Source: Bacillus sp. FJAT-29790 (lineage in GTDB: Bacteria; Bacillota; Bacilli; Bacillales; Cytobacillaceae). Taken from it: DNA of 35,332 bases. A model generated the notes under the pieces. That model ran no database searches. It was not told where the DNA came from and was given only the letters and a program-made list of their open reading frames with translations. A program made the position numbers and the translations under genes. Shown one piece after another: positions 60 to 29,384 of the stretch. The stretch is taken from contig NZ_JAHNZZ010000001.1 in assembly GCF_019039215.1 (NCBI RefSeq), positions 1,560,021-1,595,352 on the forward strand, in the 5' to 3' direction. Within the stretch, counting starts at the first letter, position 1, and each line of letters starts with the position of its first letter.

Positions 60-290
60 ACAGTTCTATTGGACAGATATCGCTGTATATTCCACTTTTC
101 GGGCTCATTGAACGGTTCTATTGGACAGATATCGCTGTATATTCCACTTTTCGGGCTCATTGAACGGTTCTATTGGACAGATATCGCTGTAATTCCATTT
201 TTCGGGCTCATTGAACGGTTCTATTGGACAGATATCGCTGTAAATCCACTTTTCGGGCTCATTAAACAGTTCTATTAGACAGATTATATC
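60..290 (+). repeat. 52-bp tandem repeat array 1 (about 4.5 units)
   Basis: The core TATTGGAC recurs at 67, 119, 171 and 222, with a degenerate TATTAGAC at 273, giving steps of 52, 52, 51 and 51 bp. Each unit reads roughly TTCTATTGGACAGATATCG followed by CTGTATATTCCACTTTTC and GGGCTCATTGAACGG. It aligns in phase with the long array at 8597-9472: TTCTATTGGAC, CGGGC and ATTGA fall at the same offsets. The array lies downstream of the 3' end of the thiamine operon. An 83-codon open frame across it is a by-product of the repeat and is not a gene. Confidence 0.95.
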
Positions 291-3755: not shown

Positions 3756-4367
3756 TTACACCCTCTTTCCTAAAGCTTTAGAATACTCTTTCACAGCTTG
3801 TAACGGATCCTCTGCTTCAAGGACGCCTGACATAACAGCTATCCCTTTTGCACCAGCTTCTAGTACGAAGCTGCAATTAGAAGGTTTTATTCCCCCGATT
3901 GCAATGATTGGCATACTAGTACTCCCCGTGATTTCTTTAAGTCCCTCTATACCCTTAGGGGGGAGATCTAGTTTTGAGTTTGTTGGAAACACATGCCCGT
4001 AAATCGCATAATCAACACCTTTTTCGGATACCTCTTTAGCTTCATTAACTGAATGTATCGAGCTGCCTACTCGAATTCCCGGGAATGCTTGCTTTACGAC
4101 CCCAGAATCTAAACTGTGAAAGGCAAGCTGTACTCCAAAGGTCTTCATTGTCCAAGCTACATCCACTCGATCGTTAATAATAATTTTTGAAAGTGGAATA
4201 TTTTTTTCCGTTAATATGTTTACAGCTTGGTAGAGTTGTAAAGCACTCATCTGCTTTTCCCTAAGGTGGAAAAAATCGACATACTCTTGAATTTCTGTTG
4301 CAATCTCAGCAAGTTTTTCAATTGGCTGTTTCCCAGTCGAAATAATGTGAAGCTCAGATGAAGCCAT
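3756..4367 (-). CDS. tenI: TenI, thiazole tautomerase
   Basis: This 203-aa ThiE-like TIM-barrel protein is best read as TenI, which aromatises the ThiG product. The tautomerase His is present in YGHVFPTN (H125), equivalent to the catalytic His of B. subtilis TenI; this argues against thiamine-phosphate synthase ThiE, as do the operon position and the divergent early region (FFHLREK). The phosphate-loop segments IIAIGGIKPSN and GAKGIAVMSG are conserved. In B. subtilis tenI directly follows tenA; here ykoEDC lies between them. The gap to ykoC upstream is 31 bp. Confidence 0.88.
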   Translation of the reverse strand: MASSELHIISTGKQPIEKLAEIATEIQEYVDFFHLREKQMSALQLYQAVNILTEKNIPLSKIIINDRVDVAWTMKTFGVQLAFHSLDSGVVKQAFPGIRVGSSIHSVNEAKEVSEKGVDYAIYGHVFPTNSKLDLPPKGIEGLKEITGSTSMPIIAIGGIKPSNCSFVLEAGAKGIAVMSGVLEAEDPLQAVKEYSKALGKRV

Positions 4368-4398
4368 GTTGGAAAACTCCTTTGTATAGAATAAACTT

Positions 4399-5181
4399 CT
4401 AAATGACTAAATAAGGGAAATGAATGGAAACATAATACCCTGCCAAAAGCAGTAGGGCAAAGTATGAAATGAATACGAGATCAATTTTGGAAAATCCAAT
4501 TGCATAATAGTACGTTCGATTCCTTGTATCCGAAAACCGTTTTGCCTCCATCGCTACAGCGATCCGATGTGCACGTCTAATACTTCCGGATAACATCGGA
4601 ATCGAATACGCTTTGATTTTAAAATAAAGCGAACGTATTCCTTTTTGCCTTTCTACCCCACGTACCTTCATCGCATTTTGGATCGTTTGAAATTCCTCCA
4701 TCATGATCGGAATTAGCCGTAATCCTGCCATAAAGCTATAGGCATATTTAGGTTTAAGCTTGACTTGCTGCATTAAGGAATAAAACAAGTACACGGGTCT
4801 AGTTGTTAAGGCAAAGGTTAATCCTAGTGCTGCAAAAACGATTGCCCGAGAGCCAACTAGTAATCCTCTTAAAAAACTTTCTTTCGAAATATGCACAAGC
4901 CCCCACTTAAACCAAGTTGTTTCCCCCTTTCCAAATAAAATCATTGAAATAGACGTAGATAAAAAAATCGCCAAAAATGGAATTAAAAATAAGAGAATGC
5001 GTTTTATTGGGTGGCCTGTATAACACAAAAATAAGATAAATACCGCGATGGTCAAGTTAATCAAAAAATTCAAGTCATGAATAAATAACACCGCGATAAA
5101 TAACACGATCAATACAGCTAGCTTTACACTTGGATTAATCCGGTGAAGCCATGTTTCCTTACTTGATAAATCCATTTGCAT
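4399..5181 (-). CDS. ykoC: YkoC, ECF transporter transmembrane subunit (EcfT type)
   Basis: This 260-aa integral membrane protein has N-terminal hydrophobic helices, a central helical pair, a cytoplasmic coupling region and a final helix. The coupling region carries the two short EcfT motifs that dock on the ATPases, MKVRGVERQ and MEAKRFSD. Position between the tandem ATPase YkoD and TenI fits YkoC of the YkoEDC transporter, predicted from riboswitch regulation in the family to import a thiamine precursor such as hydroxymethylpyrimidine. The ATG at 5181 follows AAGGGGG; an out-of-frame ATG lies just upstream. Confidence 0.88.
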   Translation of the reverse strand: MQMDLSSKETWLHRINPSVKLAVLIVLFIAVLFIHDLNFLINLTIAVFILFLCYTGHPIKRILLFLIPFLAIFLSTSISMILFGKGETTWFKWGLVHISKESFLRGLLVGSRAIVFAALGLTFALTTRPVYLFYSLMQQVKLKPKYAYSFMAGLRLIPIMMEEFQTIQNAMKVRGVERQKGIRSLYFKIKAYSIPMLSGSIRRAHRIAVAMEAKRFSDTRNRTYYYAIGFSKIDLVFISYFALLLLAGYYVSIHFPYLVI

Positions 5182-5194
5182 GCCATCGCCCCCT

Positions 5195-6661
5195 TTATAC
5201 CGATACTAATTCAGGCTCCAGGAAACGATTATGCGTTACCTTTTTATCACTGATTACTATCCCATCTTTAATCGTTAAAACTCTTGTGGCAAAGTTTCTA
5301 GTAATATGATCATCATGCGTAACCATAATGATTGTCGCACCTTGCCTTCGATAGTCCTCAATCAATTCAAGCAAGGCAAACGTATTTCTTGAATCCTGCC
5401 CAAAGGTCGGTTCGTCTAAAAGAATGAGCTTCTGTTCCTTCACAATGGAGGCTGCAACACTTAAGCGGCGCTTTTGCCCCATAGATAATTGATAAGGATG
5501 TTTTTCCCAATGTTCTGCTAGATGGAACAAGTCAAGAAGTTCTTTGACTTGTTGGTCTATTTCCGGGACAGCCATTTTATCTAACCGTAAGGAGTAAGCG
5601 ATTTCTTCATATACTGAGTTCGTCACAAATTGAAATTCGGGATTTTGAAAAACAAACGTCATCATATCAGTTAATTGTTTTACTTTTTTAATAGACGTAT
5701 CAGCTAACTCATATTGTCCCGTTGTCTTAATAAATTGCATTAATGCATGAAGGAATGTGCTTTTTCCTGCACCATTTTTCCCTCTTACAACAATCCATTC
5801 TCCTGAATACGCCTGAAATTCTTCAACGAAAATTTTTGATTGTTTTTGCCGTAATCCTTTAAAATCCTGCAAATATAAAACCGTCTCCCTATTTTCAAAT
5901 TGTGCCTTCTCACGTATGGGGTGGTTGTCCTTTACATACTCTTCCCAAACACCTGGAAACCAGATTCCTTGTTCTTTCATTTCACTCTTGTACATGGCAA
6001 GGATGGTTTCCTTTGGCCCATCTGCCATAATCTGACCTTCTTCATTAAAAAGCACAATTCGGTCAATAAATTCTAAGACGTGATCAATTTTATGTTCCAC
6101 AATAATGACCGTCTTGTCTTTACCCACTTCTTTTAAAACCTGCCAAATTTCTTTCGTACCCTCAGGGTCAAGCATAGCTGTCGGCTCATCCAAAAATAAC
6201 ACATCTGGTTCCAGTGCCAAGATCGATGCAATGGCTAAACGTTGTTTCATCCCACCTGATAATGTATGAATGCTTGTGTGGATATCTTCAAGGTTTAACC
6301 CAACCTGCTGCAGGTGATAATGAATTCGTTCTTTCATTTGATGTTGCGGAATTTCCATATTTTCAAGGACGAAAGCGATTTCTTCATCGACAAATGGCAT
6401 ACAAAACTGACTATCTGGATCTTGAAAAACATACCCCCATGAAGAAGAACATTTATGTTCTTCTGCTTTCATAGGGACTTCAATGGAATGAGGGATCAGT
6501 CCACTTAATACTTGTAAAAACGTCGACTTTCCACAACCGGATGGTCCTAGCAAAAGAACCTTCTCCCCTTTTGAGAAAGAAGCGGATAAATCCTTAAATA
6601 ATAAAGAATCTTCCCCCGGGAATTTCAATCTTAACTTTTCAACATGTACTACTCGTTCCAT
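5195..6661 (-). CDS. ykoD: YkoD, tandem ATPase of the thiamine-precursor ECF transporter
   Basis: The 488-aa protein carries two complete ABC ATPase domains in one chain. Domain 1 has Walker A GPSGCGKST (39-47), signature LSGGMKQR (134-141) and Walker B VLFLDEP (154-160). Domain 2 has Walker A GKNGAGKST (294-302), a divergent signature LSMGQKRR (392-399) and Walker B LILLDEP (412-418), followed by the switch His in MVTHD. Fused ATPases are typical of the Yko and Cbi-like ECF systems, where they pair with EcfT (YkoC) and the S component (YkoE) at the membrane. Substitution of the first G in the second signature may mean the two sites are not equivalent. Confidence 0.92.
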   Translation of the reverse strand: MERVVHVEKLRLKFPGEDSLLFKDLSASFSKGEKVLLLGPSGCGKSTFLQVLSGLIPHSIEVPMKAEEHKCSSSWGYVFQDPDSQFCMPFVDEEIAFVLENMEIPQHQMKERIHYHLQQVGLNLEDIHTSIHTLSGGMKQRLAIASILALEPDVLFLDEPTAMLDPEGTKEIWQVLKEVGKDKTVIIVEHKIDHVLEFIDRIVLFNEEGQIMADGPKETILAMYKSEMKEQGIWFPGVWEEYVKDNHPIREKAQFENRETVLYLQDFKGLRQKQSKIFVEEFQAYSGEWIVVRGKNGAGKSTFLHALMQFIKTTGQYELADTSIKKVKQLTDMMTFVFQNPEFQFVTNSVYEEIAYSLRLDKMAVPEIDQQVKELLDLFHLAEHWEKHPYQLSMGQKRRLSVAASIVKEQKLILLDEPTFGQDSRNTFALLELIEDYRRQGATIIMVTHDDHITRNFATRVLTIKDGIVISDKKVTHNRFLEPELVSV

Positions 6662-6673
6662 GCTTATCCATCC

Positions 6674-7258
6674 TTACTTTTGATCAAGTGCCTGATAATC
6701 CTTACTTGAAGCTGGACGAACAAGATTTGTTACGCCTGTTGCTTCTAAAACTTTCACAAGATAGTAAGCGAATACACCTGCAAATAGAATTGAACCTAAA
6801 AATCTAGCGATCATAAACAGTGTTAAATTCCAAGCAACAAGGTCGCCAATTTCTGAATAGGCAAAATCCATCACGATCGATCCAATGCATGAACCAATGG
6901 CAGCTAACACAACGACCGAGATATTAAATCGTTTATACCTAAAAGCAGCAAATATCATCTCTGCAAACAATCCTTGGACAACGCCATATAGTAGAACAGT
7001 TAACCCCCACGGGGATCCTAAAATGAATTCCCCTGACGCTGCCGCAATTTCCGCAAGCAAGGCAACACCAGGTTTTCGAATAATCAAAAACGCAACGGTA
7101 GCAGCAATAAACCACATGCCATACAGAAATTGATCTACATGTAAACCGAATGGCTTTACGGCATAATACACAGAACCCCAAAGGATATAAACAATGCCAA
7201 ATGCAATAGCAATCACGATTGTCACTAATATATCCGTCAATTTTAACCCTTTAGTCAT
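6674..7258 (-). CDS. ykoE: YkoE, substrate-binding (S) subunit of the ECF thiamine-precursor transporter
   Basis: A membrane protein of about 194 aa with around six hydrophobic helices. The family's YkoE features can be read: an N-terminal helix followed by LWGSVYYAVKPFG, then G-rich helices and a polar segment GSPWGLTVLLYG. Start choice: the frame stays open to 7366, but the ATG at 7258 (M-T-K-G-L-K) is preceded by GAGGAG at ideal spacing, so the upstream 36 codons are not used. B. subtilis has ykoF (a soluble HMP/thiamine-binding partner) upstream of ykoE; here the gene upstream is tenA and no ykoF is present. Confidence 0.88.
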   Translation of the reverse strand: MTKGLKLTDILVTIVIAIAFGIVYILWGSVYYAVKPFGLHVDQFLYGMWFIAATVAFLIIRKPGVALLAEIAAASGEFILGSPWGLTVLLYGVVQGLFAEMIFAAFRYKRFNISVVVLAAIGSCIGSIVMDFAYSEIGDLVAWNLTLFMIARFLGSILFAGVFAYYLVKVLEATGVTNLVRPASSKDYQALDQK

Positions 7259-7417
7259 ACGATCATCTCCTCGATAATGACACTTCAAGTTGTTCTTTAA
7301 TGAAGTAAAGGGGCGGAGCGGAGCAAGTAGGCCGATTGGCTCGAAAACAGACCAAGTCGGCTTCAAAAATTAACGAGACCTGGCTTCACTCACACCGCCT
7401 TATTGTGCTAGTTTTAT
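7259..7417 (-). other. tenA-ykoE intergenic spacer with small hairpin
   Basis: This 159-bp spacer is the longest gap inside the operon. On the minus strand it contains a possible stem GCCGACTTGG / CCAATCGGC at about 7331-7361 with one bulge. No T-run follows, so processing or mRNA stability is as likely as attenuation. No ORF is supported. Confidence 0.35.
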
Positions 7418-8137
7418 TTAATTGTACGATTTTGCCTCCGTAGTAAATGATGGTGTTGAAACGCCATTTTGGTTTTGGATCGGCCAAGTTTCTAAACGGT
7501 GCGCCATTTCCCAAAAAGAGTACTCATATTGACTACTGAGTATAAAATGCTCTTTCATTCGTTCCCTATCTGTTTCTGTCACCTTTTCAGCGATCTCATC
7601 TATTCTATTAATTTGTTCCTCCACCAATGTACGGAACCAATTGCCTCCATATGCAGCGATCCACTCTTGATAAATTGGTTCTTCTGGTGTACAACCTTGA
7701 AGTCTCTCACCGATTTCATAGTACAACCAGTAGCAAGGCAAGATAGCAGCAATGATGTCGCCTAAATGACCTGAATAGGCTGCACGATACATATGTGATG
7801 TGTATGCATATGCCGTAGGTGCAGGCTTAAAGTTTTTCTTTTCTTCTTCTGTAATGCCCAGTCTATTTGAAAAATTCTCATGAAGCCTTAATTCAGCTTC
7901 ATATGTTCCTTGTGCATGACTTGCTAGGCGACTCGTTGTATGTAGATCCACTGCTTTCACTGCACCTAAAGCTTGAACTCTTGCAAAATGTGATAAATAG
8001 TAAGCATCCTGCATGACATAATAACGAAAACACTCTAATGGCAATGTCCCATCACCAATTCCCTTTACGAATGGGTGATCAAAGCTTGCATTCCAAATGT
8101 GATCGACTTCTCTACGAATTTCCTTTGAAAATGTCAT
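7418..8137 (-). CDS. tenA: TenA, aminopyrimidine aminohydrolase (thiaminase II)
   Basis: TenA (239 aa) hydrolyses aminomethyl-aminopyrimidine from degraded thiamine to hydroxymethylpyrimidine for salvage. The catalytic residues known from B. subtilis TenA fall at the same numbers here: D44 (MQDAYY), C135 (LPCYWLYYE) and E205 (SQYEYSFW). Start choice: a TTG at 8152 is in frame, but the ATG at 8137 has GGAGGG seven bases upstream and is clearly the start. It is the first gene of the riboswitch-controlled operon, consistent with salvage and import being induced when TPP is low. Confidence 0.96.
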   Translation of the reverse strand: MTFSKEIRREVDHIWNASFDHPFVKGIGDGTLPLECFRYYVMQDAYYLSHFARVQALGAVKAVDLHTTSRLASHAQGTYEAELRLHENFSNRLGITEEEKKNFKPAPTAYAYTSHMYRAAYSGHLGDIIAAILPCYWLYYEIGERLQGCTPEEPIYQEWIAAYGGNWFRTLVEEQINRIDEIAEKVTETDRERMKEHFILSSQYEYSFWEMAHRLETWPIQNQNGVSTPSFTTEAKSYN

Positions 8138-8234
8138 ATTTTCTCCCTCCAATTTAATATTTCAGAAGTTGACTCAATCATGAATATTGATGAACCACGT
8201 AACCCCATCCCATCGATCACCTCAATTTCTGCAA

Positions 8235-8268
8235 ATAAAAAACCACTTTCTCATAAAGAAAGTGGTTG
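8235..8268 (-). terminator. Riboswitch-controlled intrinsic terminator
   Basis: On the minus strand, AACCACTTTCT - TTATG - AGAAAGTGGTT is followed by TTTTTTATTT. The 5' arm (CCACTTTC) can instead pair with GAAGTGG at the 3' end of the TPP aptamer, so aptamer P1 and an antiterminator compete for the same bases. TPP binding should favour termination before tenA. Confidence 0.92.
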
Positions 8269-8300
8269 TATTAAAAAATACTAGACGATTAACCGTCAAT

Positions 8301-8437
8301 CCCACTTCCCTACGCTGGTATAGTCCAGATCAGGTTCTAAGAGTCTTAAAGCAATACTTTAATCTCAGCCCTTTTGGTAAAAATAAGCATGTGATTTCTT
8401 TTTCAGCTTATTATTTACCTAAGGCACCCCTAGTGGT
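8301..8437 (-). promoter_or_regulatory. TPP riboswitch (THI element)
   Basis: On the minus strand the conserved thi-box blocks appear in order: CCACTAGGGGTGCC (P1/P2 5' side), GGGCTGAGAT, AACCTGATCTGG, and ACCAGCGTAGGGAAGTGG closing P1. The optional P3a stem is long: GGTAAATAATAAGC pairs with GCTTATTTTTACC around a loop of about 17 nt. Together with the downstream terminator at 8235-8268 this is a transcription-attenuation switch controlling the whole tenA-thiF operon. Confidence 0.97.
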
Positions 8438-8471
8438 AAAAATTGTGTATTCAATTAATTTCTCATTTGAC

Positions 8472-8502
8472 TACATACTACCATGATAAATTTATTTGTC
8501 AA
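8472..8502 (-). promoter_or_regulatory. Promoter of the thiamine operon
   Basis: A consensus -35 box TTGACA (minus strand, 8502-8497) precedes a TAGTAT-like -10 after about 16-17 bases, placing a start just upstream of the TPP aptamer. This is a motif match only; the -10 is weak. Confidence 0.6.
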
Positions 8503-8596
8503 ACACTTTTTCGAATAATAGGAATTTTCAAATCAATCATTTACTATTCTAATAACTAGATTATAGGAATAGTGCAAAAGTTTTTCAACTAAAACT

Positions 8597-9472
8597 TTAT
8601 TGAGTGCTTCTATTGGACCAAGATTTGTGGATTTACAAGATCTTGGGACAATTGAGTGCTCCTATTGGACCGAGATTAGTGGATTTCCAAGATCTCGGGA
8701 CTATGGAGTGCTTCTATTGGACCAAGAGTAGTGGATTTTCAAGATCTTGGGCCTATTGGATACTTCTATTGGACCGATTTTAGTGGATTTCCAAGATCTC
8801 GGGACTATGGAGCGCTCCTATTGGACCGATATTTGTGGATTTCCTAGCTCTCGGGACTATTGAGTGCTCCTATTGGACCAAGATTAGTGGATTTCCAAGC
8901 ACTTGGGCCTATAGGGTACTTCTATTGAACCGAGATTAGTGGATTTACAAGATCTTGGGCCTATTGAATGCCTCTATTGGACCGATTTTAGTGGATTTTC
9001 AAGATTCCGGGCCTATGGAGTGCTTCTATTGGACCAAGATTAGTGGATTACCAAGATCTCGGGCCTATGGAGTGCTTCTATTGGACCGAGATTAGTGGAT
9101 TTTCAAGATCTCGGGACTATGGAGCGCTCCTATTGGACCGATTTTAGCGGATTTACAAGATCTCGGGCCTATTGGGTACTTCTATTGGACCGAGATTAGT
9201 GTATTATCAAGCTCTCGGGCCTATTGAGTGCTTCTATTGGACCGAGATTAGTGGATTTCCGAGCCCTTGGGCCAATTGGGTACTTCTATTGGACCGAGAT
9301 TAGTAGTTTTCTAAGCTATCAGGCCTATTGAATGCTTCTATTGGATCGAGATTAGTGGATTTACAAGCTCTTTGGCCTATTGAGTGCTCCTATTGGACCG
9401 AGATTAGTGGATTTCCAAGCCCTCGGGCCTATTGAGTAATTCTATTGGACCGAGATTAGAGGATTATCAAGC
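8597..9472 (+). repeat. 52-bp tandem repeat array 2 (17 units, no indels)
   Basis: The core TATTGG (one unit TATTGA) begins at 8611, 8663, 8715, 8767, 8819, 8871, 8923, 8975, 9027, 9079, 9131, 9183, 9235, 9287, 9339, 9391 and 9443: exactly 52 bp each time, although units differ by several substitutions. A consensus unit is TATTGGACCGAGATTAGTGG, then ATTTCCAAGATCTCGGGCC, then TATTGAGTGCTTC. The unit contains a dyad: GGACCGAGAT pairs with ATCTCGGGCC, enclosing TGGATTTCCA. In units 1, 3 and 6 CCGAG/CTCGG becomes CCAAG/CTTGG on both arms. The array lies between the phage helicase gene and the thi promoter. Confidence 0.97.
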
Positions 9473-9519
9473 TAATAGTTTGACGCCATATAATCATATT
9501 CCTCCATGAAAAAAATTCT

Positions 9520-10830
9520 TTAGGAACCTGATGACAAATCCGCAAACCGCCCGTATTCCTTCACAAAAGCAAGCTCAATCGTTCCAATCGGACCATTCCG
9601 CTGTTTGGCGAGGATGATTTCGATGATGTTCTTCTGCTCTGATTGTTTATGATAATAGTCATCGCGGTAAAGAAATGCGATGACATCGGCATCTTGTTCG
9701 ATTTGGCCGCTTTCCCGCAGGTCAGAAAGCATCGGGCGTTTATCCTGCCGGCTTTCGACGCCCCGGCTAAGCTGGGAAAGCGCAATGACGGCGACATTCA
9801 ATTCTCGCGCCATTTGCTTTAGCCCCCTGCTAATTTCACTGATTTCTGCTTGCCGATTCGATTTATGCTTCGGATCGCCGACAATTAATTGCAAATAATC
9901 AATCACGACAAGGATTCTTTTCTGCTCTCCGTACTCCCTTCTCACCTTCCGCACCTTTGACCAAATATAGTTCATGTCCATGCCTGCTTTGTCAAAAATA
10001 TGTAGATTGGCCTTTGATATATTCCCCATCGCATCAGAGAACTGCTCCCAATCCATCTCATTAAAAAGCCTTTTTGGATTCCTCATTTTCATCGAGCTGA
10101 TCCTGCCATTGCAGCTAGCCGCTCTCTTCAACAGCTGCTTTTTTAACATTTCCAGTGAAAAAATAAGCGCAATATCGTTTTTCGAGGCATTTAGCGCAAT
10201 ATTTAAAGCAAAGGCTGTTTTCCCGACACTCGGCCTTGCCCCGACAACAATTAAATCCGACTCTTGAAACCCTCCTGTCAGTCGATCAACCTTCTTAAAG
10301 CCGGATGGTATCCCTGTTATTTCACCGAGATCCTTTCCGCAATCGGAATACAAATCTACTAAAGAAGACATAATTTCGCCAAGATCGTCATCGCCAAGAT
10401 GATCTTCTATCAGCATTAAGTCATGGATGCCCTCGCGCAGCGTTGTCGCAATATCCGCAAACCTAGCATCATTCCTGATTCTGCCTGCAATTTCGACTGC
10501 TTTCCGCTTTTGATAATATTCTTTGACTGTATCTTGATAAAAGCGAAAATTGGCGGTCGTTGGCACACTGCCAGCAAGCTTAGTTATGTAACTGATGCCT
10601 CCTATGCTTTCGAGATTCTGCGTGACAATCTCTTCAACAACAGAAATGACGTCAATCGGCTTTCCCTTCTCATTAAGACACTTAATCGCTGCAAAAAGGC
10701 GCTGTAATTTTTTCAAGTACAATTGCTCTGGCCTGATCGTGCAGTCTTTTACTAATCCTTCTTCTAAAAATAACGAACCAACGACAGCCTCTTCCGCCTC
10801 CTGATTAAAAAGCTCGAATTCTTGCATCAT
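9520..10830 (-). CDS. Phage-type DnaB replicative helicase
   Basis: The 436-aa protein is a DnaB-family hexameric 5'-3' helicase. The N-terminal DnaB domain (about residues 5-110) is followed by a RecA-like domain with Walker A GARPSVGKT (197-205), Walker B ILVVIDYLQL (306-315), the DnaB motif LSQLSRGVESR with R-x-D-K-R-P, and a C-terminal RNG motif (LAKQRNGPIG). Its partners point to a phage gene (SPP1 G40P type) rather than the host dnaC: it overlaps, by ATGA, a G39P-like loader gene. GC content is visibly higher than that of the flanks, a sign of transfer. Either of two adjacent ATGs (10830, 10827) could be used, behind AGGGGGGAGGG. The reading frame is intact. Confidence 0.92.
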   Translation of the reverse strand: MMQEFELFNQEAEEAVVGSLFLEEGLVKDCTIRPEQLYLKKLQRLFAAIKCLNEKGKPIDVISVVEEIVTQNLESIGGISYITKLAGSVPTTANFRFYQDTVKEYYQKRKAVEIAGRIRNDARFADIATTLREGIHDLMLIEDHLGDDDLGEIMSSLVDLYSDCGKDLGEITGIPSGFKKVDRLTGGFQESDLIVVGARPSVGKTAFALNIALNASKNDIALIFSLEMLKKQLLKRAASCNGRISSMKMRNPKRLFNEMDWEQFSDAMGNISKANLHIFDKAGMDMNYIWSKVRKVRREYGEQKRILVVIDYLQLIVGDPKHKSNRQAEISEISRGLKQMARELNVAVIALSQLSRGVESRQDKRPMLSDLRESGQIEQDADVIAFLYRDDYYHKQSEQKNIIEIILAKQRNGPIGTIELAFVKEYGRFADLSSGS

Positions 10831-11168
10831 CCCTCCCCCCTGCTGATGCCTAAAATTTCTCTCATTTTCGCAAGCTCCCTCTTTACCACTTCCTCACTTG
10901 CTGGTTTCCAGTCTATTTTTAAAATGTATGCTGTATCTGCACAATTCGGAATGGCCCGTGAAACGACTGCCGGTTTCTTGATCAAATCCGAAACCTTCGG
11001 AGGGTAAGGAGATTCTGCGACATAAGCAAGCAAATTTTCCCGGAGCTGATCAACTGTATAGTCTTTCAAGATTTTATGCCAAGAATCTACCTTTTCCTGA
11101 TCCAATTCAAACTGCTCGTAATAGACAGATATCAACGCCAATAAAGTAAATGCCTCGCGCTTAGTCAT
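10827..11168 (-). CDS. G39P-like phage helicase loader/inhibitor
   Basis: This 113-aa protein has the size, position and pattern of the SPP1 G39P family, which loads or restrains the phage DnaB helicase: an N-terminal MTKREAFTLLALISVYYEQF helix, a central D-x-V-x-x-W-H-x-x-L segment, and PYPPKVSDLIK before an extended C-terminus. It overlaps the upstream gene by 8 bp and the helicase gene by 4 bp, so the three are translated as a unit. Recognition comes from family memory and gene order, not from a search. Confidence 0.8.
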   Translation of the reverse strand: MTKREAFTLLALISVYYEQFELDQEKVDSWHKILKDYTVDQLRENLLAYVAESPYPPKVSDLIKKPAVVSRAIPNCADTAYILKIDWKPASEEVVKRELAKMREILGISRGEG

Positions 11169-11911
11169 CTAAATCAAAATCCTCCTCCCGCCACTGTTTC
11201 TTCGGCGATTTCTGGTTTAAATACGATTCAAACTTTGTCCCAAACAACGTCTCGGGCCTGAGATATTTATTCCAATTCGGATCATTCAGCCACTCTGCCG
11301 TCTTTAGGTCAACCACCTTTTTAAAATCACCCAGCGTAAATCCTTCCTTCCAACGTGCACGAATTAACTCCATTGTTTTTCTCGTGCCCGCTTTATAGGA
11401 TGCATTCGTTTTGTCATTCAAGTATTGAATCACTTCGGAAAAAGGGATATTATTTTTCTCTGTTGTAATCTCTGAAGTAATCTCTGGTATTGCTTGTGTC
11501 ATCCTGCTCCCTTGTTCGGCGCAATCTGAAGCACTGTTTGGCTCAATCTGGCTAGACAGCTGCTCACTAAGCGTTTTACCGACCCTTTCCAATTCGCCAA
11601 GCTTCTCATAGTCAATGCTGTACCACTTCGTTTGATCCATTTTTGAACGATTAAAATTCCCCGAAATTAAATAGCCTTGATTCTCCAGCGACTTAATCGT
11701 CCGCTTAATCGTACTTTCCGACCAAAACGGCAACTGCATCTGCCACTCCTTGTACGTGTTATAAATCCACTTCCTCCCCTCCATCATATGTGAACTTTTT
11801 ACGAGCCAATAATGGATCTGCTGCAAAACCACCGCCTCATTCAACCCCATCTTCAAAGCCAAAGACGGAATAATCATAATTGGACTTTCATTGATTAATA
11901 GCTTGGCTCAT
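11161..11911 (-). pseudogene. Phage replisome organizer (winged helix + Phg_2220_C), start region frameshifted
   Basis: The 238-aa open frame from ATG 11877 has an N-terminal winged-helix region typical of phage replisome organizers (GLNEAVVLQQIHYWL, then WSESTIKRTIKSLENQGYL), a linker, and a C-terminal domain (residues about 148-225: IQYLNDKTNASYKAG to YLRPETLFG) matching Phg_2220_C. ATG 11877 has no ribosome site. The natural start is ATG 11911-11909 with GGAGG seven bases upstream; it reads M-S and then, after one extra C near 11903-11906, K-L-L-I-N-E-S-P in frame with the ORF. Homologues usually begin M-x-K-L-L-I-D-E-S-P. The gene therefore looks broken by a 1-nt insertion, unless this is a sequencing error or an internal start is used. 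Confidence 0.75.
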
Positions 11912-12018
11912 CTGTACGCCTCCAAACTTTTCCCTTTATTAAAAGCAGTTCTGAGCTGGATCTCATCTAAAAGAGACAGAGCCTATAAATCTAACCTGAC
12001 CATTCTGAGATCTTCCAT
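11908..12018 (-). pseudogene. Possible small phage ORF interrupted by a stop
   Basis: On the minus strand, ATG at 12018 opens M-E-D-L-R-M-V-R-L-D-L, then a TAG, then in the same frame ALSLLDEIQL and RTAFNKGKSLEAYR to a TGA that overlaps the ATG of the replisome organizer (ATGA). The coupling suggests the remnant of the gene that once preceded it in the phage operon. No family is recognised; the reading is tentative. Confidence 0.3.
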
Positions 12019-12078
12019 TAGCTCACTGCCTTCTGCCTTTCATATATATGGAAGTTGAGAAAAAGGACATGGAGAACA

Positions 12079-12124
12079 AATAAAAAAAGAACGCTAGACA
12101 ACTATTGAGTTTGTTATCCAGCGT
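12079..12124 (-). terminator. Intrinsic terminator (minus strand)
   Basis: On the minus strand, GAACGCTGGATAAC and GTTGTCTAGCGTTC form a stem with two imperfect positions around AAACTCAATA, followed by TTTTTTTATTTG. It would end transcripts coming from the small ORF at 12272-12382. Confidence 0.75.
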
Positions 12125-12271
12125 TCATGCATATGTAAATGACGTACTCTTGCTCAATTCAATAAAACATTAGTTGGATACATTTCATAAAGACTTTATT
12201 TGAGAATAACGAACCATTTTTTTTATGTTTGAAGCTTGGTAGTCACTTAGATCAAATAGCGGAAATAAATA

Positions 12272-12382
12272 TTATTGTATTCGTTTTTCGGTTTGGTTAC
12301 ATACAGTGTTAATGTTCACCCAATTTGGTAGTTTAAATATTTGTTCTGCATCATTCGGACCTAATTGTTTCATTTCTTCCAT
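12272..12382 (-). CDS. Small hypothetical protein (36 aa)
   Basis: ATG at 12382 is preceded by GGAGG with a spacing of about 9 bases and opens a 36-codon frame, MEEMKQLGPNDAEQIFKLPN followed by WVNINTVCNQTEKRIQ. A minus-strand terminator lies 150 bp downstream at 12079-12124, so a short transcript unit is plausible. I do not recognise a family; it is soluble and without a signal or membrane segment. It could be the start of a longer gene that has been truncated. Confidence 0.4.
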   Translation of the reverse strand: MEEMKQLGPNDAEQIFKLPNWVNINTVCNQTEKRIQ

Positions 12383-12511
12383 CAGCTCTTTCCTCCATTA
12401 CAGAAGGAAAAATACGTTTCAAAGAAACGTTTAAGGGGAATTTTAGATTAAATACATAAATATCCATAGTCATATTATTAACATCAATTTTTAGCCTTTT
12501 ATAGTTTGCTA

Positions 12512-12560
12512 TTACTTATGCTACGGTTCACCGTAACGTATCTAAATGAGGTTTTTATTA
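12512..12560 (+). repeat. Dispersed element copy A (ACCGTA-N7-TAAATGAGG)
   Basis: Reads ACTTATGCTACGGTTCACCG, TAACGTATC, then TAAATGAGGTTTTTATTATG. Contains the near-palindrome TACGGT-TC-ACCGTA. Related copies lie at 14311, 15890, 21981, 25054 and, inverted, 32401. Confidence 0.7.
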
Positions 12561-12663
12561 TGTATTTTAAGAATAGTGCTTCACTCCCCGAATAAGGTCG
12601 GTGAATTCGACAAAATACGGGAAGTGTACACTTATTTCAATATAAAATGTAGAAATCATTATG

Positions 12664-12715
12664 TAAACTTTACTTTACATTATGCATAAAATATTTTACT
12701 AGAAGTAAAGTTGAC
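12664..12715 (+). promoter_or_regulatory. Promoter with inverted-repeat operator for the regulator cluster
   Basis: A perfect 10-bp inverted repeat, AACTTTACTT (12666-12675) and AAGTAAAGTT (12703-12712), flanks an AT-rich core with a -10-like TAAAAT. It lies just upstream of the first gene of a cluster whose second gene is a small XRE regulator, so autorepression through these arms is the natural inference. Confidence 0.55.
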
Positions 12716-12734
12716 CATACAGGGGGTGTAAAAC

Positions 12735-13181
12735 ATGACCTATCAAGAAAAGAAAAGTATCGTATCATTAATCAGCACCATACTAATTTTCGTATCTTAT
12801 TGCTTGTACATGTACCCTCAGTACCCTGAAGGGGGTCTGGAGTCGATTGAAACCTTTCGCTACTGGGGATCCTTCGTCCTCATCTTGACTGTAGTTTCCA
12901 TAGTTGCGCACATCATTATCAGCATTATTTTTAACACTCTCTTTAGAATTACGACGAGAGAAAAGGAACCCAGGTTTGCGGATGAACCGGATAAATTGAA
13001 TGAGCTGAAAGCGTTCCGAAATTCTTTTTTTGTGTTTATTCTCGGCATTCTTGTTGCAATGGGAGTGCTGATCATTTATCAGCCGTTACAAGTGATGTTC
13101 ATTATCCTGATAATTTCAGGATTCATTTCCAACGTGACCGACCCCATTACGAAATTTTATCATTATCGGAGAGGAGTGTAA
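12735..13181 (+). CDS. Four-helix membrane protein, partner of the XRE regulator (DUF2178-like)
   Basis: This 148-aa protein has four hydrophobic segments (about residues 9-27, 44-70, 98-112 and 116-134), with a charged cytoplasmic loop REKEPRFADEPDKLNEL between helices 2 and 3. Start ATG at 12735 is preceded by AGGGGGTG. The gene is followed after 2 bp by a small XRE regulator, an arrangement common in Firmicutes where a DUF2178-type membrane protein and a YgzD-like regulator are co-transcribed. Function is unknown; a membrane sensor or anti-regulator is only a guess. Confidence 0.75.
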   Translation: MTYQEKKSIVSLISTILIFVSYCLYMYPQYPEGGLESIETFRYWGSFVLILTVVSIVAHIIISIIFNTLFRITTREKEPRFADEPDKLNELKAFRNSFFVFILGILVAMGVLIIYQPLQVMFIILIISGFISNVTDPITKFYHYRRGV

Positions 13182-13183
13182 GA

Positions 13184-13408
13184 GTGGGCAAAAATCTTGT
13201 CGGCAATCATATTCGAAAATTACGATTCAACCATGATGAAATGACCCAGCAGCAGTTGGCTGACAAGGTGGGAGTAACAAGACAAACGATTGTGGCTCTC
13301 GAAAAGGGAAACTACTCTCCATCTCTAGAACTGGCTTTTCGAATTGCTCATGCCTTTAACTTACCTTTGGAAGAGGTATTCTTTTATGGGGACAACACCA
13401 AAGTTTAA
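13184..13408 (+). CDS. Small XRE-family transcriptional regulator (YgzD-like)
   Basis: This 74-aa single-domain helix-turn-helix protein starts at GTG 13184, within GGAGAGGAGTGTAAGAGTG. The HTH is readable as QQQLADKVGVTRQTIVALEK at about residues 22-41, followed by the usual NYSPSLELAFRIAHAF and VFFYGD ending. It probably represses the cluster through the AAGTAAAGTT inverted repeat at 12666-12712. It is tightly linked to the membrane gene before it and to a DUF4386 membrane protein after it. Confidence 0.88.
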   Translation: MGKNLVGNHIRKLRFNHDEMTQQQLADKVGVTRQTIVALEKGNYSPSLELAFRIAHAFNLPLEEVFFYGDNTKV

Positions 13409-13453
13409 GAAATACCTATAACGTTTATGAATTTATTAAAAGGCGGAGATAAA

Positions 13454-14152
13454 ATGAATTCAAACAAAAGAGCGGCAAAAATTGTGGGAGTACTATTTAT
13501 ACTTGCAGCCGTAGCAGCAATAATAGGTCTAACTTTATACAATCCCATCCTAAACGGTCCCGATTACCTGATTAAAGGTAGCGAACATGCCAACCAAGTG
13601 ATACTGGGAGCGCTTATGGAGTTAATTCTTGTCGTTTCAGTGGTTGGTACGGCAACGGTCATGTTTCCAATTTTACGAAAATATAATGAAACGATTGCTC
13701 TTTGGCATGTTTGCTTCAGATTTCTTGAAGCGGTTATCATTACGGTTGGTGTAATCAGTGTGCTGTCCCTGTTGACCTTAAGCAGGGAATTTGTAGCAGC
13801 AGGAGCCCCGGATAGCACCTCTTTTCAAGCATCAGGTATATTATTAAAAGCAGTACATGACTGGACCTTTCTGCTTGGGCCACTTTTCATGCTTGGTATC
13901 AATACAATGATGTACAGTTATCTATTTTATAAATCCAAGCTCGTGCCCAGGTTTATCTCCATCTTGGGTATGACAGGGGCAACTTGTGTTTTTATTTGTG
14001 CCTTGTTAGTCATGTTCGGTGTCATTCAGCAAATTTCTGTTTGGGGTGGTATTTTGGCCCTGCCTGTAGCAGCAAATGAAATGATTTTAGCAGTATGGCT
14101 CATCGTTAAAGGATTCAACGGTTCTGCATTAGATTCCCTGTCTGAAAAATAG
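13454..14152 (+). CDS. DUF4386 membrane protein
   Basis: A 232-aa integral membrane protein with about six hydrophobic helices. It begins with MNSNKRAAKIVGVLFILAAV, the standard start of the DUF4386 family, and keeps the family's polar stretch GSEHANQVILGALMELI and the FRFLEAVI and KAVHDWTFLLGPL segments. The frame extends upstream to 13427, but ATG 13454 follows GGCGGAG at good spacing. It lies 45 bp after the XRE gene and is followed by a terminator, so it is probably the last gene of the cluster. Function unknown. Confidence 0.85.
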   Translation: MNSNKRAAKIVGVLFILAAVAAIIGLTLYNPILNGPDYLIKGSEHANQVILGALMELILVVSVVGTATVMFPILRKYNETIALWHVCFRFLEAVIITVGVISVLSLLTLSREFVAAGAPDSTSFQASGILLKAVHDWTFLLGPLFMLGINTMMYSYLFYKSKLVPRFISILGMTGATCVFICALLVMFGVIQQISVWGGILALPVAANEMILAVWLIVKGFNGSALDSLSEK

Positions 14153-14242
14153 AAAGTGCCGAGATATTTGCATTTCAGAATTTTGAATATTAATTATTTA
14201 TGGGATTTATTCGAAGATTCTCTGCTTGAATCAGTAAAAAAA

Positions 14243-14279
14243 CAGAGCTGACTTGACTATTGGTCAACTCTATTTTTTT
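14243..14279 (+). terminator. Terminator after the DUF4386 gene
   Basis: AGAG, a bulge, then TTGAC-TATTG-GTCAA and CTCT form a short stem followed by ATTTTTTTA. A-runs on the left side make it potentially bidirectional. Confidence 0.6.
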
Positions 14280-14786
14280 ATGTTAAAAACAACAATGCTA
14301 GTTTTCTCAGTTACTTATGGTACGGTTCACCGTAATATATCTATATGAGGTTATTATTATTACAAGGACAAATGCCTGCAAAAATATAATCATTTTCATT
14401 ATCAATATTAAATACTTTTCTACGTCGAATAAAAAATTGTTTTCATTCCAGGCTTCGACATTTTCCACTTTACTTTTTTGGTAATATTTTCATATTATTT
14501 ATTTAGAAGTTTTCTTTTTATTGAATCAAATATTCACTTTTCTATATACTTTTAAGGAGCTAAAAGACCTACGCGATTAGCAAACAGCTGTTGATTGAAC
14601 AAAATACAGGGGTAATCCATTTCATGATGTAGGAGTCGCTATTTTGCGGTCGCTAAGGAGATAGCAGCCTGTTTCGAAACCTTGTCATAAGGAAAAGATC
14701 GCCATCGATATAGTAACCGCCGTATAGATGCGTAAAGCAGGAAACGTGGAAGGACCAAATATGGGCGAAAAATAAGGAGGATCGTT
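14280..14786. other. Gene-poor region upstream of the SDR
   Basis: An AT-rich stretch with the dispersed element copy B (14311-14358). The last 150 bp before the SDR are less AT-rich and contain short open segments interrupted by stops, possibly a gene remnant. Nothing recognisable was found. Confidence 0.4.
14311..14358 (+). repeat. Dispersed element copy B
   Basis: Reads TTACTTATGGTACGGTTCAC, CGTAATATATC, then TATATGAGGTTATTATT. Same arrangement as copy A, including the TACGGT-TC-ACCGTA dyad and the 7-base spacer. Confidence 0.7.
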
Positions 14787-15737
14787 ATGAAAGACAAAAT
14801 TGTTATAATTACAGGAGCCAATTCCGGGATTGGTAAAGCGGCGGCCCTTAAATTTGCAACAGAAGGATACCATGTTATCATGGCTTGCCGCAATATGGAG
14901 ATTAGTACAGCCGTACAAAGAGACATCATTAAAATCTCAAAAAATACGAATATAGATCTGATGAAGCTTGATATCTCTTCTTTTGATTCTATTCGTTCAT
15001 TTTGCACAGCTTTTAAAGCCAAATACCCGCGGTTGGACATCCTGATACATAACGCCGCCTACTTAAATCACGGTAAAAAAGAATATAAACTTAGTCCCGA
15101 GCATATCGAATTGTCTTTTGCTACAAATACATTCGGTCCTTTTTTAATGACTCGTTTATTGGTAGATCATCTTGCAAAATCACCAGACCCAAGAATCCTC
15201 AATGCTTGTACGACAAACATCAAAAATTTCTTCGACCCGAAAAGGAAGATCGAGTTCGACAATTTGCGTGGAGAACTGAGGAACACACGGCCTTATAGCA
15301 CTTATAAGATGTATGGAGACTCGAAAATGGCGTTACTGATGCTAACCTTCAAAATGGCAGAAGAATATAAAAGCATGGGGATCAAAGTCAATGCCCTTCA
15401 AATCAACCGCGTAAAACTATCAAAAGAGACCATTAAGAAAATGCATTCCTTTTGGAAAGTGTTTGCATGGGTACAAAATCTCACCAATCCTTTACCATCG
15501 GGCATGGCCGATAACTATTTTCAAATTTGTACTTCGGATGAATTTAAGAATGTTACCGGTCAACTGATCAATCATAAGAGAGAGATTATTAAACCATCTA
15601 CAACCGAAAAAGGCTTTACACAATTGAAGAACATCTTCGGTTCAAGCAGCTATCCTAGATACGCAACAAATCCTCAAAATATTGAACAGTTATGGAAGTT
15701 AAGCACCACGCTCATCGAAGAATACACTCAAAATTAG
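14787..15737 (+). CDS. Short-chain dehydrogenase/reductase (retinol-dehydrogenase-like)
   Basis: This 316-aa cytoplasmic NAD(P)-dependent oxidoreductase has a classical SDR cofactor motif TGANSGIG (9-16), an R in ACRN favouring NADP, the motif HNAAY (about 88-92), and Y176-x-x-x-K180 in MYGDSKMAL. The usual catalytic Ser in the V-S-S segment is replaced: the strand reads RILNACTTN, so Cys141/Thr142 occupy that place, which could alter or lower activity. The ATG follows AAGGAGG at ideal spacing. Substrate is unknown. It stands alone, with a strong hairpin about 50 bp after its stop. Confidence 0.88.
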   Translation: MKDKIVIITGANSGIGKAAALKFATEGYHVIMACRNMEISTAVQRDIIKISKNTNIDLMKLDISSFDSIRSFCTAFKAKYPRLDILIHNAAYLNHGKKEYKLSPEHIELSFATNTFGPFLMTRLLVDHLAKSPDPRILNACTTNIKNFFDPKRKIEFDNLRGELRNTRPYSTYKMYGDSKMALLMLTFKMAEEYKSMGIKVNALQINRVKLSKETIKKMHSFWKVFAWVQNLTNPLPSGMADNYFQICTSDEFKNVTGQLINHKREIIKPSTTEKGFTQLKNIFGSSSYPRYATNPQNIEQLWKLSTTLIEEYTQN

Positions 15738-15784
15738 TGAACTACCCCCTGTGAGTAGACAGTGGAAATAATTTAAAGTGGCTT

Positions 15785-15826
15785 AAACGGCCTTAGCCCT
15801 CTATACCAGTGGGCTGAGGCCGTCCT
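15785..15826 (+). terminator. Hairpin/terminator after the SDR gene
   Basis: ACGGCCTTAGCCC and GGGCTGAGGCCGT form a 13-bp stem (one G-T pair) around TCTATACCAGT, followed by CCTTATTTC. The T-run is weak, but the stem is strong and lies just downstream of the stop. Confidence 0.65.
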
Positions 15827-20540: not shown

Positions 20541-20699
20541 ATGTATTTTCTTCAACTAACCTCCCTCTATATAGAAAGAATTATCTCCTCTGATAGTACA
20601 TTTTTTCGCAATTTTACAAAAAGAGGTACATATCTCTCTAACAATTTGGTCAACATACCTATATAGCAAGCAGAACGAACTTAAGGGAGAATGTTAAAA

Positions 20700-21959
20700 A
20701 TGAGAATAACAAAAGTAAATACACTTTTAGCATTGTTGAAGGCCATTTTTGAAAATATACCACAAGTGTTGGAAGTTGAAGGTTCCATTCTTTCCCCTCA
20801 TTCAATTATTTTACCTGAAGGCTATAAATTAACCGGAAAAGATGATGAATCATGTATGATAAGCTTCAATAATAGTGATGGTTTTGGAGTGACTCGCGAT
20901 AATACCATCTCAAACCTAACCGTTATGACAAAACATTCAAACCGAGCAATTTATACAGTGTCTGGTATTCAGGATATGGGGAATATTGTCCTTGAAAATT
21001 TGCATATATCAGGTCAGGTTTCCATTATTTCTAGACAAAGAACGAACAGGATTAATCTTAATGTAAACAATATCCACATTACCTCTTGCGACTCGAGACA
21101 TTATAGCGAGCAACCGCAAAAGTATGGTGTTAATGTGTACCAAGGAGCAATGACCGTATACAATTTCAATTCAGATGCAAACAGTCAAATTGATTGCAAT
21201 TTAACAAACATCTCCATAGGCTTTAAAAACGCTCCTGTTTTTGGCTCAGGTATTTTTATTTGCGGATTTAGCGATGAAGGCGGCAAGGTTAATTTAGAAA
21301 CACTTAGCACAGGAGCTGTCTATTCAAATGGAATGCTGCCGTATGGGACAGCCGATATTATTACCGCGGCTGTCTTTATTGTGTATGGTGTGGATGCAAA
21401 AACAGTTGAACATCATGGCGAGATTGTGACTTACGGTGTTAATGACATGGTTTTGGATACATGGGGAAAAGTTGAAAAGTGGGTTAGCCATTTCCCGGTA
21501 GTATCTTATGGACCAAGCGGCATCGGATTTGTGAATTTTGGAACGGTAAAAGATTTCGTGGCGCAGGATATTATTACCTATGGATTAGGGGCAAGAGGGT
21601 TTAACCAATATGATGGTACAGTTGAAAATATTAAGTTTAAATCAATCACAACCTATGGGGATGGATCCATTGGAATACAAGTCAGTAAGCCCATTGGAAC
21701 TATCATTGTGGAAGAAAACGTCACAACCTATGGCTCTGTGGGCAACTCCCTCGTTAAAGGCGTGAATATGAAACTTGCGGCAAGCGCCATAAGTATTAAG
21801 TCAGGTGGCAAAATTGAAAGTTTGACCGTTAATGGCGACATTATTACGAACGGTGATGATGTTACAAGTTATGCATTGGAGGGCGGAGAAGTTAAGGAAC
21901 TGAACATTAAGGGGAAAATCATCGCTAATGGTAAAAATTCAAAGGAAAATACAAAATAA
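20700..21959 (+). CDS. Repetitive beta-helix-like protein of unknown function
   Basis: A 419-aa protein with no signal peptide or membrane helix. From about residue 60 it is built of short beta-strand turns rich in Gly, Asn, Thr and Val, with a recurring T-Y-G or S-Y-G step (EIVTYGVND, VVSYGPSGIG, DIITYGLGARG, SITTYGDGSIG, NVTTYGSVG) spaced by about 22-27 residues, as expected for coils of a right-handed beta-helix. The C-terminal part ends with ESLTVNGDIITNG and ELNIKGKIIANG. The first 55 residues include GSILSPHSIILPEGYKLTG, a cap-like region. ATG 20700 is preferred over ATG 20691 because GGGAGA directly abuts the latter. Pectate-lyase-like catalytic motifs were not seen; a structural or adhesive role is only a guess. 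Confidence 0.7.
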   Translation: MRITKVNTLLALLKAIFENIPQVLEVEGSILSPHSIILPEGYKLTGKDDESCMISFNNSDGFGVTRDNTISNLTVMTKHSNRAIYTVSGIQDMGNIVLENLHISGQVSIISRQRTNRINLNVNNIHITSCDSRHYSEQPQKYGVNVYQGAMTVYNFNSDANSQIDCNLTNISIGFKNAPVFGSGIFICGFSDEGGKVNLETLSTGAVYSNGMLPYGTADIITAAVFIVYGVDAKTVEHHGEIVTYGVNDMVLDTWGKVEKWVSHFPVVSYGPSGIGFVNFGTVKDFVAQDIITYGLGARGFNQYDGTVENIKFKSITTYGDGSIGIQVSKPIGTIIVEENVTTYGSVGNSLVKGVNMKLAASAISIKSGGKIESLTVNGDIITNGDDVTSYALEGGEVKELNIKGKIIANGKNSKENTK

Positions 21960-28907: not shown

Positions 28908-29384
28908 TGAACTACTCTCCTTTTTGATATGTAATTTCGATCGAATAATTAAAGTTGTCGGTTTCTTTTTAATAAATATGAAGCTCAATCTTCGTCATAA
29001 ATAATTTATCGATATAATTCTTCATAGTTTATTCGTCATCGAAAGGCCAAAAACCTTTTTCTGCTATCTGCATCGCTAGTTAAAGAAAGTATCTTTATGT
29101 AAATACTTATATAAAAAATAATACAAACAAAAACCTCACCAATATGAAAAAGCCACCAAATATGGCAGCTAGTTGTTCACTCTTTGCATCTGCTAGTTGA
29201 AGAAGAACTATATTTACTCTACTAGAATCGAAACTGCACTATAAATCAATAACAAAGCCATAACCATATTAAAATGATCTCGATACTTTGTGAGGAATCT
29301 CTGAAACAAATAAAAGCATATTAGCCCCCTTCTAAGATGTAATTAAATATGATCATCTAATAACCGACTCAAGTGACAATTGAC
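28908..29384. other. Gene-poor region upstream of the dehydrogenase
   Basis: AT-rich sequence holding the probable dehydrogenase promoter and a doubtful small frame at 29214-29319, listed separately. Nothing else was seen before array 3. Confidence 0.4.
29214..29319 (-). pseudogene. Possible small membrane peptide with a frame break
   Basis: On the minus strand ATG 29319 has AGGGGG upstream and reads MLLFVSEI, but this frame soon stops. One frame over, FQRFLTKYRDHFNMVMALLL followed by IYSAVSILVE ends at 29214: a basic stretch then a hydrophobic helix, as in small Bacillus membrane peptides. A one-base indel near 29300 would join them. Tentative. Confidence 0.3.

Follow-up and report, generated by a model that had tools for sequence, protein, structure and literature searches.

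A class of intergenic 52-bp tandem arrays in Bacillus sp. FJAT-29790 and its relatives, possibly helically phased DNA-wrapping sites at gene 3' ends

The tandem array at positions 8598–9492 of the window (the whole 35,332-nucleotide stretch of Bacillus sp. FJAT-29790 DNA that was analysed) belongs to a class of intergenic arrays with a 52-bp unit that is widespread in the genus. The explanation favoured here, tentatively and at somewhat less than even confidence, is that they are helically phased DNA-wrapping sites for a bending protein, probably gyrase, at gene 3' ends, where they would absorb transcription-driven supercoils. The features of the window are:

63–284, plus strand: second 52-bp array, of the CTATTGGAC family, about four units (TRF, sequence, unit lengths)
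7418–8137, minus strand: tenA (TENA/THI-4 family), the first gene past the riboswitch (Pfam)
8290–8441, minus strand: TPP riboswitch aptamer RF00059, 77.8 bits (family match)
8560–8588, minus strand: candidate sigma-70-like promoter TTGAAA-17-TATAAT, 11 of 12 consensus positions matched (promoter scan)
8598–9492, plus strand: focal 52-bp array (TRF, unit table, alignment)
9520–10830, minus strand: DnaB-like replicative helicase gene (gene calls, Pfam)
29382–29701, no strand assigned: third 52-bp array, of another family (GGACATTT...AAATGTCC), 6.2 copies, 0% indels (TRF, sequence, context, Pfam)

The 52-bp array given in the preliminary description is real: TRF reported it at 8598–9465 with a period of 52, 16.7 copies, 82% matches, 0% indels and a score of 1113. 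Sixteen full units span 8609–9440, preceded by the trailing 11 bp of a partial unit (8598–8608) and followed by a seventeenth (9441–9492) that matches over only about 30 bp, then diverges, and has an identity of 0.56–0.65 to the other units. Seventeen TATTGG cores had been described at 8611 + 52n, and this register holds at 16 of the 17 positions; the core of unit 7 (8923) reads TATTGA, unit 17 is partial, and two further TATTGG motifs lie off register, at 8754 and 9170. The many substitutions said to separate the units were readily seen, with a mean pairwise identity of 0.805 across the 17 units that is almost flat with distance along the array. In units 1–16, which align without a gap and all run head-to-tail in one orientation (alignment, TRF), 88 cells deviate from the consensus and at least 64 substitutions are needed on a tree. 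The array also proved to be intergenic and spacer-free as described, lying between the DnaB-like gene on one side and the TPP riboswitch and tenA on the other. A CRISPR identity was rejected, the units being contiguous and diverged and spacers being absent. Protein coding was likewise rejected, since the unit length of 52 cannot be divided by 3 and the array is covered by none of the called genes, and so was a plasmid or phage origin, blastn of plasmid and phage collections having given no match. A BLAST search against 100 relatives returned a single 42-bp stretch, in one relative.

The DnaB-like gene, the TPP riboswitch and tenA all lie on the minus strand. The stop of the DnaB-like gene (9520) is 55 bp from the TRF end of the focal array, and the −35 box of the promoter-like site (8588–8560, minus strand) starts 10 bp from the array's low end; taken whole, the promoter scan was not above shuffles, and the 8560–8588 site is a consensus match only. 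The segment at 9520–11877 holds the DnaB-like helicase gene, a short gene to which Pfam assigns no family and a Phg_2220_C gene (conserved phage C-terminal domain), and looks like a phage replication remnant beside the array. Of the other two arrays, that at 63–284 has a spacing of 51 bp in 2 of 4 measured cases, and that at 29382–29701 begins 47 bp past the stop of a DUF4317 gene. An ORF of 422 residues at 20691–21959 carries repeated short glycine-containing stretches with an adhesin-like beta-helix look, the translation being judged by eye.

The tenA beside the TPP riboswitch (7418–8441) shares 89% identity with Peribacillus loiseleuriae over residues 1–223. A tenA like it (59–65% identity) was found in 4 of 35 other genus genomes, a relative at 34–38% in 29 and none in 2. 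Because identity reaches 89% to P. loiseleuriae and at most 65% within its own genus, the sequences suggest that tenA and its riboswitch may be an accessory or transferred thiamine operon, and because a similar tenA occurs in only 4 of the 35 other genomes the focal locus is not traceable across species. The upstream flank of tenA in several other genera carries differently spelled tandem arrays, with a period of 40–42 bp in six of seven loci, as if this intergenic site repeatedly drew arrays. The seven are:

L054 9374–9555: array upstream of tenA in another genus
L059 9444–9566: the same
L071 9835–9945: the same
L082 9720–9904: the same
L102 9525–9643: the same
L105 9508–9603: the same
L124 9678–9949: the same

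Unit length was counted with the spacing left free between 37 and 67 bp. In family A (CTATTGGAC, own genome, including the focal array), 48 of 49 pairs were spaced at 52 bp and one at 51, and the family's other arrays in the genome thus lack the variable unit lengths that had been set against the preliminary description's view of a constant length. In the second family, family B (TCCGAAGTTG, present in 14 of the 36 genomes searched), 363 of 383 pairs were spaced at 52 bp, a figure obtained by subtracting 15 shorter pairs (13 at 51, one at 50, one at 45) and 5 longer ones (four at 53, one at 63); these odd-length pairs are not all independent, three successive 51-bp units occurring together in genome G010. 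In fetched arrays, exactly 52 bp was measured for 81 of 85 units of family A (own genome) and 194 of 202 of family B. Five of the eight odd-length family B units lie within the first two of their array (binomial P 0.02, in a test picked post hoc), and changes in unit length are mostly not compensated by the neighbouring unit. At two places in genome G001 (C1:4901101–4901214 and 4901725–4901838), which are 624 bp or 12 x 52 apart, a 51-bp unit is followed by a 53-bp unit, summing to 104. With units of 45, 50, 51, 53, 54 and 63 bp present, the 52-bp rule is strong and not absolute.

The claim that length is held while sequence changes, for which a test of indels against substitutions had been proposed, was borne out when that comparison was made. 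Unit length changes amount to 0.012–0.013 per substitution in families A and B, whereas ordinary intergenic DNA of 80 named relatives shows 0.07 gap openings per substitution at 95–99.9% identity, 0.10 at 85–90% and 0.20 at 75–80%. Gap openings against the consensus in 52 arrays came to 70 per 1787 mismatches (0.039), 2–5 times below ordinary intergenic DNA, and to 49 per 1675 (0.029) without L015, L019 and L204, which have a 51-letter consensus and contribute 21 openings. From these counts, gaps are about 2–7 times and unit length changes about 5–15 times rarer than in ordinary intergenic DNA, and since some openings cancel within an array, net length is better kept than gaps are avoided. A recent single-origin expansion, the other possibility raised at the outset, is at odds with units that are about 80–88% identical and with family B arrays at shared loci in different species.

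The count of the repeat in its own genome and in relatives, proposed earlier, showed the focal array to be one of many intergenic 52-bp arrays belonging to several sequence families. Fifty-two of 95 intergenic TRF rows of period 18–120 had a period of 51–52 in 1.63 Mb from five genus genomes, a sample partly chosen around known matches and with about 2 kb counted twice; of its 18 coding rows in the same period range, none did. In a match-blind sample of 400 kb taken from another five species, a period of 51–52 was found in 5 of 15 intergenic rows, and two others lay at 54 and 104; the 54-bp row was all that one of these species gave, and another had none near 52. The longest run of successive 52-bp units is about 19. 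Families were told apart by eye, CTATTGGAC occurring in the own genome, TCCGAAGTTG in 14 of 36 genus genomes, CTCATGGCGACCG-like units in several, and others besides, and several different cores are found at one 52-bp pitch within a single genome. Among 299 genomes sampled from the taxonomic class the TCCGAAGTTG pair was found in 2, both from one other genus of the same family, with all 10 pairs at 52 bp. A class-level control (373 kb, 20 genomes) gave 11 intergenic rows, too thin for a conclusion, of which 6 were 73–148-bp rows of one CRISPR-like locus and one was at 53 bp. In one control genome, several CRISPR-like rows with a period of about 73 bp, their repeat closing with GGGGACTGAAAG, were noted in L297 (G113:C1) at 4356–15798. 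Among the matches listed in an open-access literature search on repeats, pitch and gyrase, there was no paper on 52-bp intergenic arrays in Bacillaceae.

A second class of intergenic arrays was noted in L205 (2359–2896 and 18978–19300), L040, L197 and L226, with spacings mostly of 20 and 21 bp, or about two helical turns. A period of 20 or 21 accounts for 24 of the 95 intergenic rows of the five-genome sample, and the motif TATTTGCA occurs in the arrays of L205, L040 and L197. The 20 and 21 bp spacings often alternate, and in 13 such arrays from the same genomes 47 gap openings were counted per 294 mismatches (0.16), so that indels are commoner than in the 52-bp class.

At 10.4 bp per turn, 52 bp corresponds to 5.0 turns of B-DNA, as the preliminary description had pointed out. 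AT dinucleotides in 49 unit consensi show a power excess at harmonic 5 (10.4 bp), with a mean z of 2.0 and 43% of consensi above z 2, whereas the other 15 harmonics have mean z values of −0.51 to 0.28 and two sets of 400 control intergenic 52-mers gave mean z values of 0.11 and 0.17 at 10.4 bp, 7.5% and 10.3% of them exceeding z 2; within one family, the arrays that enter these statistics are not independent of each other. The mean AT z at 10.4 bp lies between 1.1 and 3.1 in all eight genome-by-family groups, GC dinucleotides in the unit consensi have a mean z of 1.3, and AA/TT alone gives 2.2 for the class and 0.67 for focal family A. In the focal array, AT phasing at 10.4 bp is absent (WW z 0.7, AA/TT z −0.3), and the best harmonic is at 6.5 bp. 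Predicted bend, computed from a dinucleotide wedge table and kept as weak evidence, has a class mean z of 1.13 and a focal z of −0.8, below shuffles. Periodicity in the filler alone was as strong at 8.7 bp as at 10.4 bp, the filler offering too little resolution.

Spacings were also fitted directly. In the 20–21 bp class, TTTGCA spacings up to 110 bp fit best at 10.25 bp (R 0.62, 345 spacings), and off-lattice values such as 36 and 45 occur as well; TATCGG spacings fit best at 10.05 bp (48) and ATGAGCG spacings at 10.35–10.4 bp (23). For the 46 intergenic periods between 18 and 110 bp at tenA loci in 80 named genomes, the best fit is 10.3 bp (R 0.68, and 0.67 for the 25 periods of at least 30 bp), whereas 32 coding periods peak at 13.95 bp (R 0.54) with an R of 0.46 at 10.3. 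When the 51–52 bp arrays were removed from the genus intergenic periods, the remaining 43, a few of them TRF sub-rows (25–29 bp) of 52-bp arrays (L029, L212, L213) or of a 51-bp one (L026), gave an R of 0.556 at 10.4 and 0.564 at 8.5, so that 10.4 was not singled out; 18 genus coding periods gave 0.09 at 10.4. The five-turn idea gains from the AT phasing of the class and from a second class at 20–21 bp; in the focal array the 10.4-bp AT signal is lacking (z 0.7).

Under the favoured explanation, selection would act on rotational phase, 52 bp being kept as five turns of B-DNA, and the DNA would therefore be bound or wrapped in register. That one pitch recurs in differently spelled arrays behind the genes of related species makes evenly phased wrapping sites for a DNA-bending protein a likely interpretation, and the DNA of the arrays may accordingly be bent or wrapped by a protein that should accept arrays of different sequence. 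This wrapper would be DNA gyrase, with RemA as the second named candidate. Gyrase would load beside gene 3' ends at the arrays and take up transcription-driven supercoils there, and the focal array, which abuts the promoter-like site, may in addition influence that site from upstream. A broader form of the explanation, to which we give somewhat less credence, is that in intergenic arrays throughout Bacillaceae genomes the inherited trait under selection could be a pitch of 2 or 5 turns of B-DNA rather than the sequence, the arrays being wrapping stations after gene ends that buffer transcription-driven supercoiling and whose cores are replaced from one species to the next under a constant pitch.

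Both candidates have features that match. In Escherichia coli, the gyrase motif shows phased 10-bp G/C variation with periodic arms that match the 35–52 bp wrapped on the GyrA CTD, and both BIME-2 and the regions downstream of transcribed operons are enriched in gyrase sites (PMC6379681). Gyrase would thus fit the placement and the phasing of the arrays; against it, the BIME-2 signal goes up when transcription is inhibited (PMC6379681). RemA sites in Bacillus are AT-rich, weakly conserved protected repeats of 7 bp with 3-bp gaps, giving a 10-bp step, and DNA wrapping is suggested for the octameric RemA ring (PMC8481266). RemA would fit the lineage and the 10-bp step, although the sites described for it lie upstream of promoters; the class's AT phasing appears compatible with RemA-type elements every 10 bp. 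A RemA-like gene was found in 36 of 36 genus genomes, including the own genome, and also in Synechococcus and Thermotoga. As such genes occur elsewhere and gyrase is, to our knowledge, universal, neither protein explains why the pitch is common here.

The conservation of the cores speaks for a different type of protein. Between arrays, identity of the core (17–19 positions, selected after conservation had been seen) is 0.96 against 0.45 for the filler in family B and 0.92 against 0.56 in family A, and although the filler sequence is not conserved between arrays, its length is kept. The cores are imperfect dyads (e.g. GTCCGAA-N11-TTCGGAC and ATAGA-N5-TCTAT), and unit consensi of 52 arrays have mean folding z values of −1.06 and −0.92 on the two strands, a mild and near-equal tendency that fits a dyad in the DNA. 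Such strong conservation would suit a sequence-reading protein better than gyrase, and the leading rival, retained because of these cores and considered unlikely overall, is that each unit is an operator for a sequence-specific dimeric protein, the 52-bp pitch setting dimers on one helix face so that a filament forms and the families representing different proteins or specificities. Several cores at one pitch in one genome argue, however, against the site of any one protein being what sets the pitch, and no protein is linked to the arrays here.

Placement relative to genes bears on both the wrapping explanation and a neutral one. The 53 arrays of 51–52 bp lie in 36 co-directional, 14 convergent and 1 divergent gaps, two being not callable, whereas 500 reference gaps, taken from the same stretches with a minimum length of 200 bp, comprise 321 co-directional, 64 convergent and 115 divergent ones; divergent gaps are therefore depleted (Fisher P 9e-5) and convergent gaps enriched (P 0.0096). 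Of the 51 arrays for which both neighbouring genes were called, 50 follow the 3' end of one or both, a position like that of REP/BIME elements, although the gene calls came from a simple script, so that small genes may be missed. In co-directional gaps the median distance from the upstream stop to the array is 104 bp, and that from the array to the following start codon is 234 bp. By Pfam, the genes that precede 10 of the 22 arrays in genome G001 comprise ribosomal protein L25, two transporters, a BacA-family protein, an acetyltransferase, a LacI regulator, SpoIVA and three without a family; being mixed, with one ribosomal, they give no sign of strong transcription.

Several of the 30 family B loci (L131–L160, of which L133, L147 and L160 come from G001 itself) share their locus, among the matches listed, with arrays of G001, G003 or G005, the flanks being about 83–94% identical. 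Flanking anchors were compared in 21 rows, of which ten were self-matches or repeats of one pair, leaving eleven (four at a single locus). The anchor distance differs by whole units (0, 1, 5 or 6) within 1 bp in 4 of the 11, is off whole units by 4–9 bp in another 4, and by 19–22 bp in 3, in which one anchor lies 68–229 bp out. The whole-unit differences indicate that in family B copy number changes while the site stays.

These observations would also be expected, in part, if the arrays had no function, duplication favouring whole helical turns making them and neutral persistence keeping them where they do least harm, which we regard as rather improbable. Avoidance of divergent gaps and a preference for 3' ends are what tolerated junk would show, copy number varies between species, some of the 40–42 bp arrays of other genera contain indels (TRF 0–11%), and the 20–21 bp arrays have an ordinary gap ratio. 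A bias at birth, however, leaves unexplained why diverged units stay at 52 bp (0.012–0.013 length changes per substitution, against 0.07–0.20).

Much less probable are REP/BIME-like mobile elements spread by a transposase specific for the dyad core. In one genome, same-family arrays are scattered, at 3' ends and with conserved dyad cores, as this would have it, but the units run head-to-tail in one orientation with no alternation, a single 52-bp pitch across families is unexpected, and the main hairpin of the focal array is not kept by compensating changes: its covariation is 0.097 against 0.096 in shuffles (228 of 500 as high), 79.9% of cells pairing and 20% being unpaired. Last and least probable, a transcribed array forming a chain of RNA hairpins (terminator, RNase target or RNA sponge) was rejected as the main reading, for although the whole focal array folds better than shuffles as RNA (plus strand z −6.1, minus strand z −2.6), main-stem covariation is at shuffle level, the terminator-like sites lie outside the array, and across the class there is no strand preference, the array having the strand of the upstream gene in 15 and the opposite strand in 12 of 27 scorable cases.

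Bacterial noncoding tandem repeats mostly serve as typing markers and are assumed to be neutral. A 52-bp length held across families and species, the depletion of length changes and the AT phasing of the class together suggest that sequence alone may suffice to reveal selection on the rotational setting of DNA. Should a wrapper of the gyrase or RemA type bind them, the arrays would amount to a map of supercoil sinks in a Gram-positive chromosome, and the link of transcription to DNA topology would become directly testable.

Like bacterial minisatellites or VNTRs, the arrays are head-to-tail, as in the focal array, and vary in copy number between species at one locus, as in family B; unlike them, different families share one pitch and length changes are depleted. 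They resemble the BIME-2 and REP elements of E. coli in being intergenic and repetitive and in having dyad cores, but BIMEs alternate in orientation and are not known to keep one fixed pitch, whereas the arrays run head-to-tail at 52 bp with cores that differ between families. The BIME-2 of E. coli hold gyrase cleavage sites (PMC6379681). Strong gyrase sites (Mu SGS, pSC101) are described as having phased sequences that bind gyrase better and arms matching 35–52 bp on the GyrA CTDs (PMC6379681); the corresponding phased AT/GC variation reaches a mean z of 2.0 in the class and 0.7 in the focal array. Those sites are single, each in a motif of about 130 bp around the cleavage centre, whereas the arrays have up to about 19 units and the focal one is without AT phasing. 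The RemA operator regions described in Bacillus are short and upstream of promoters (PMC8481266), whereas the arrays here have a 52-bp unit and lie mostly after gene ends.
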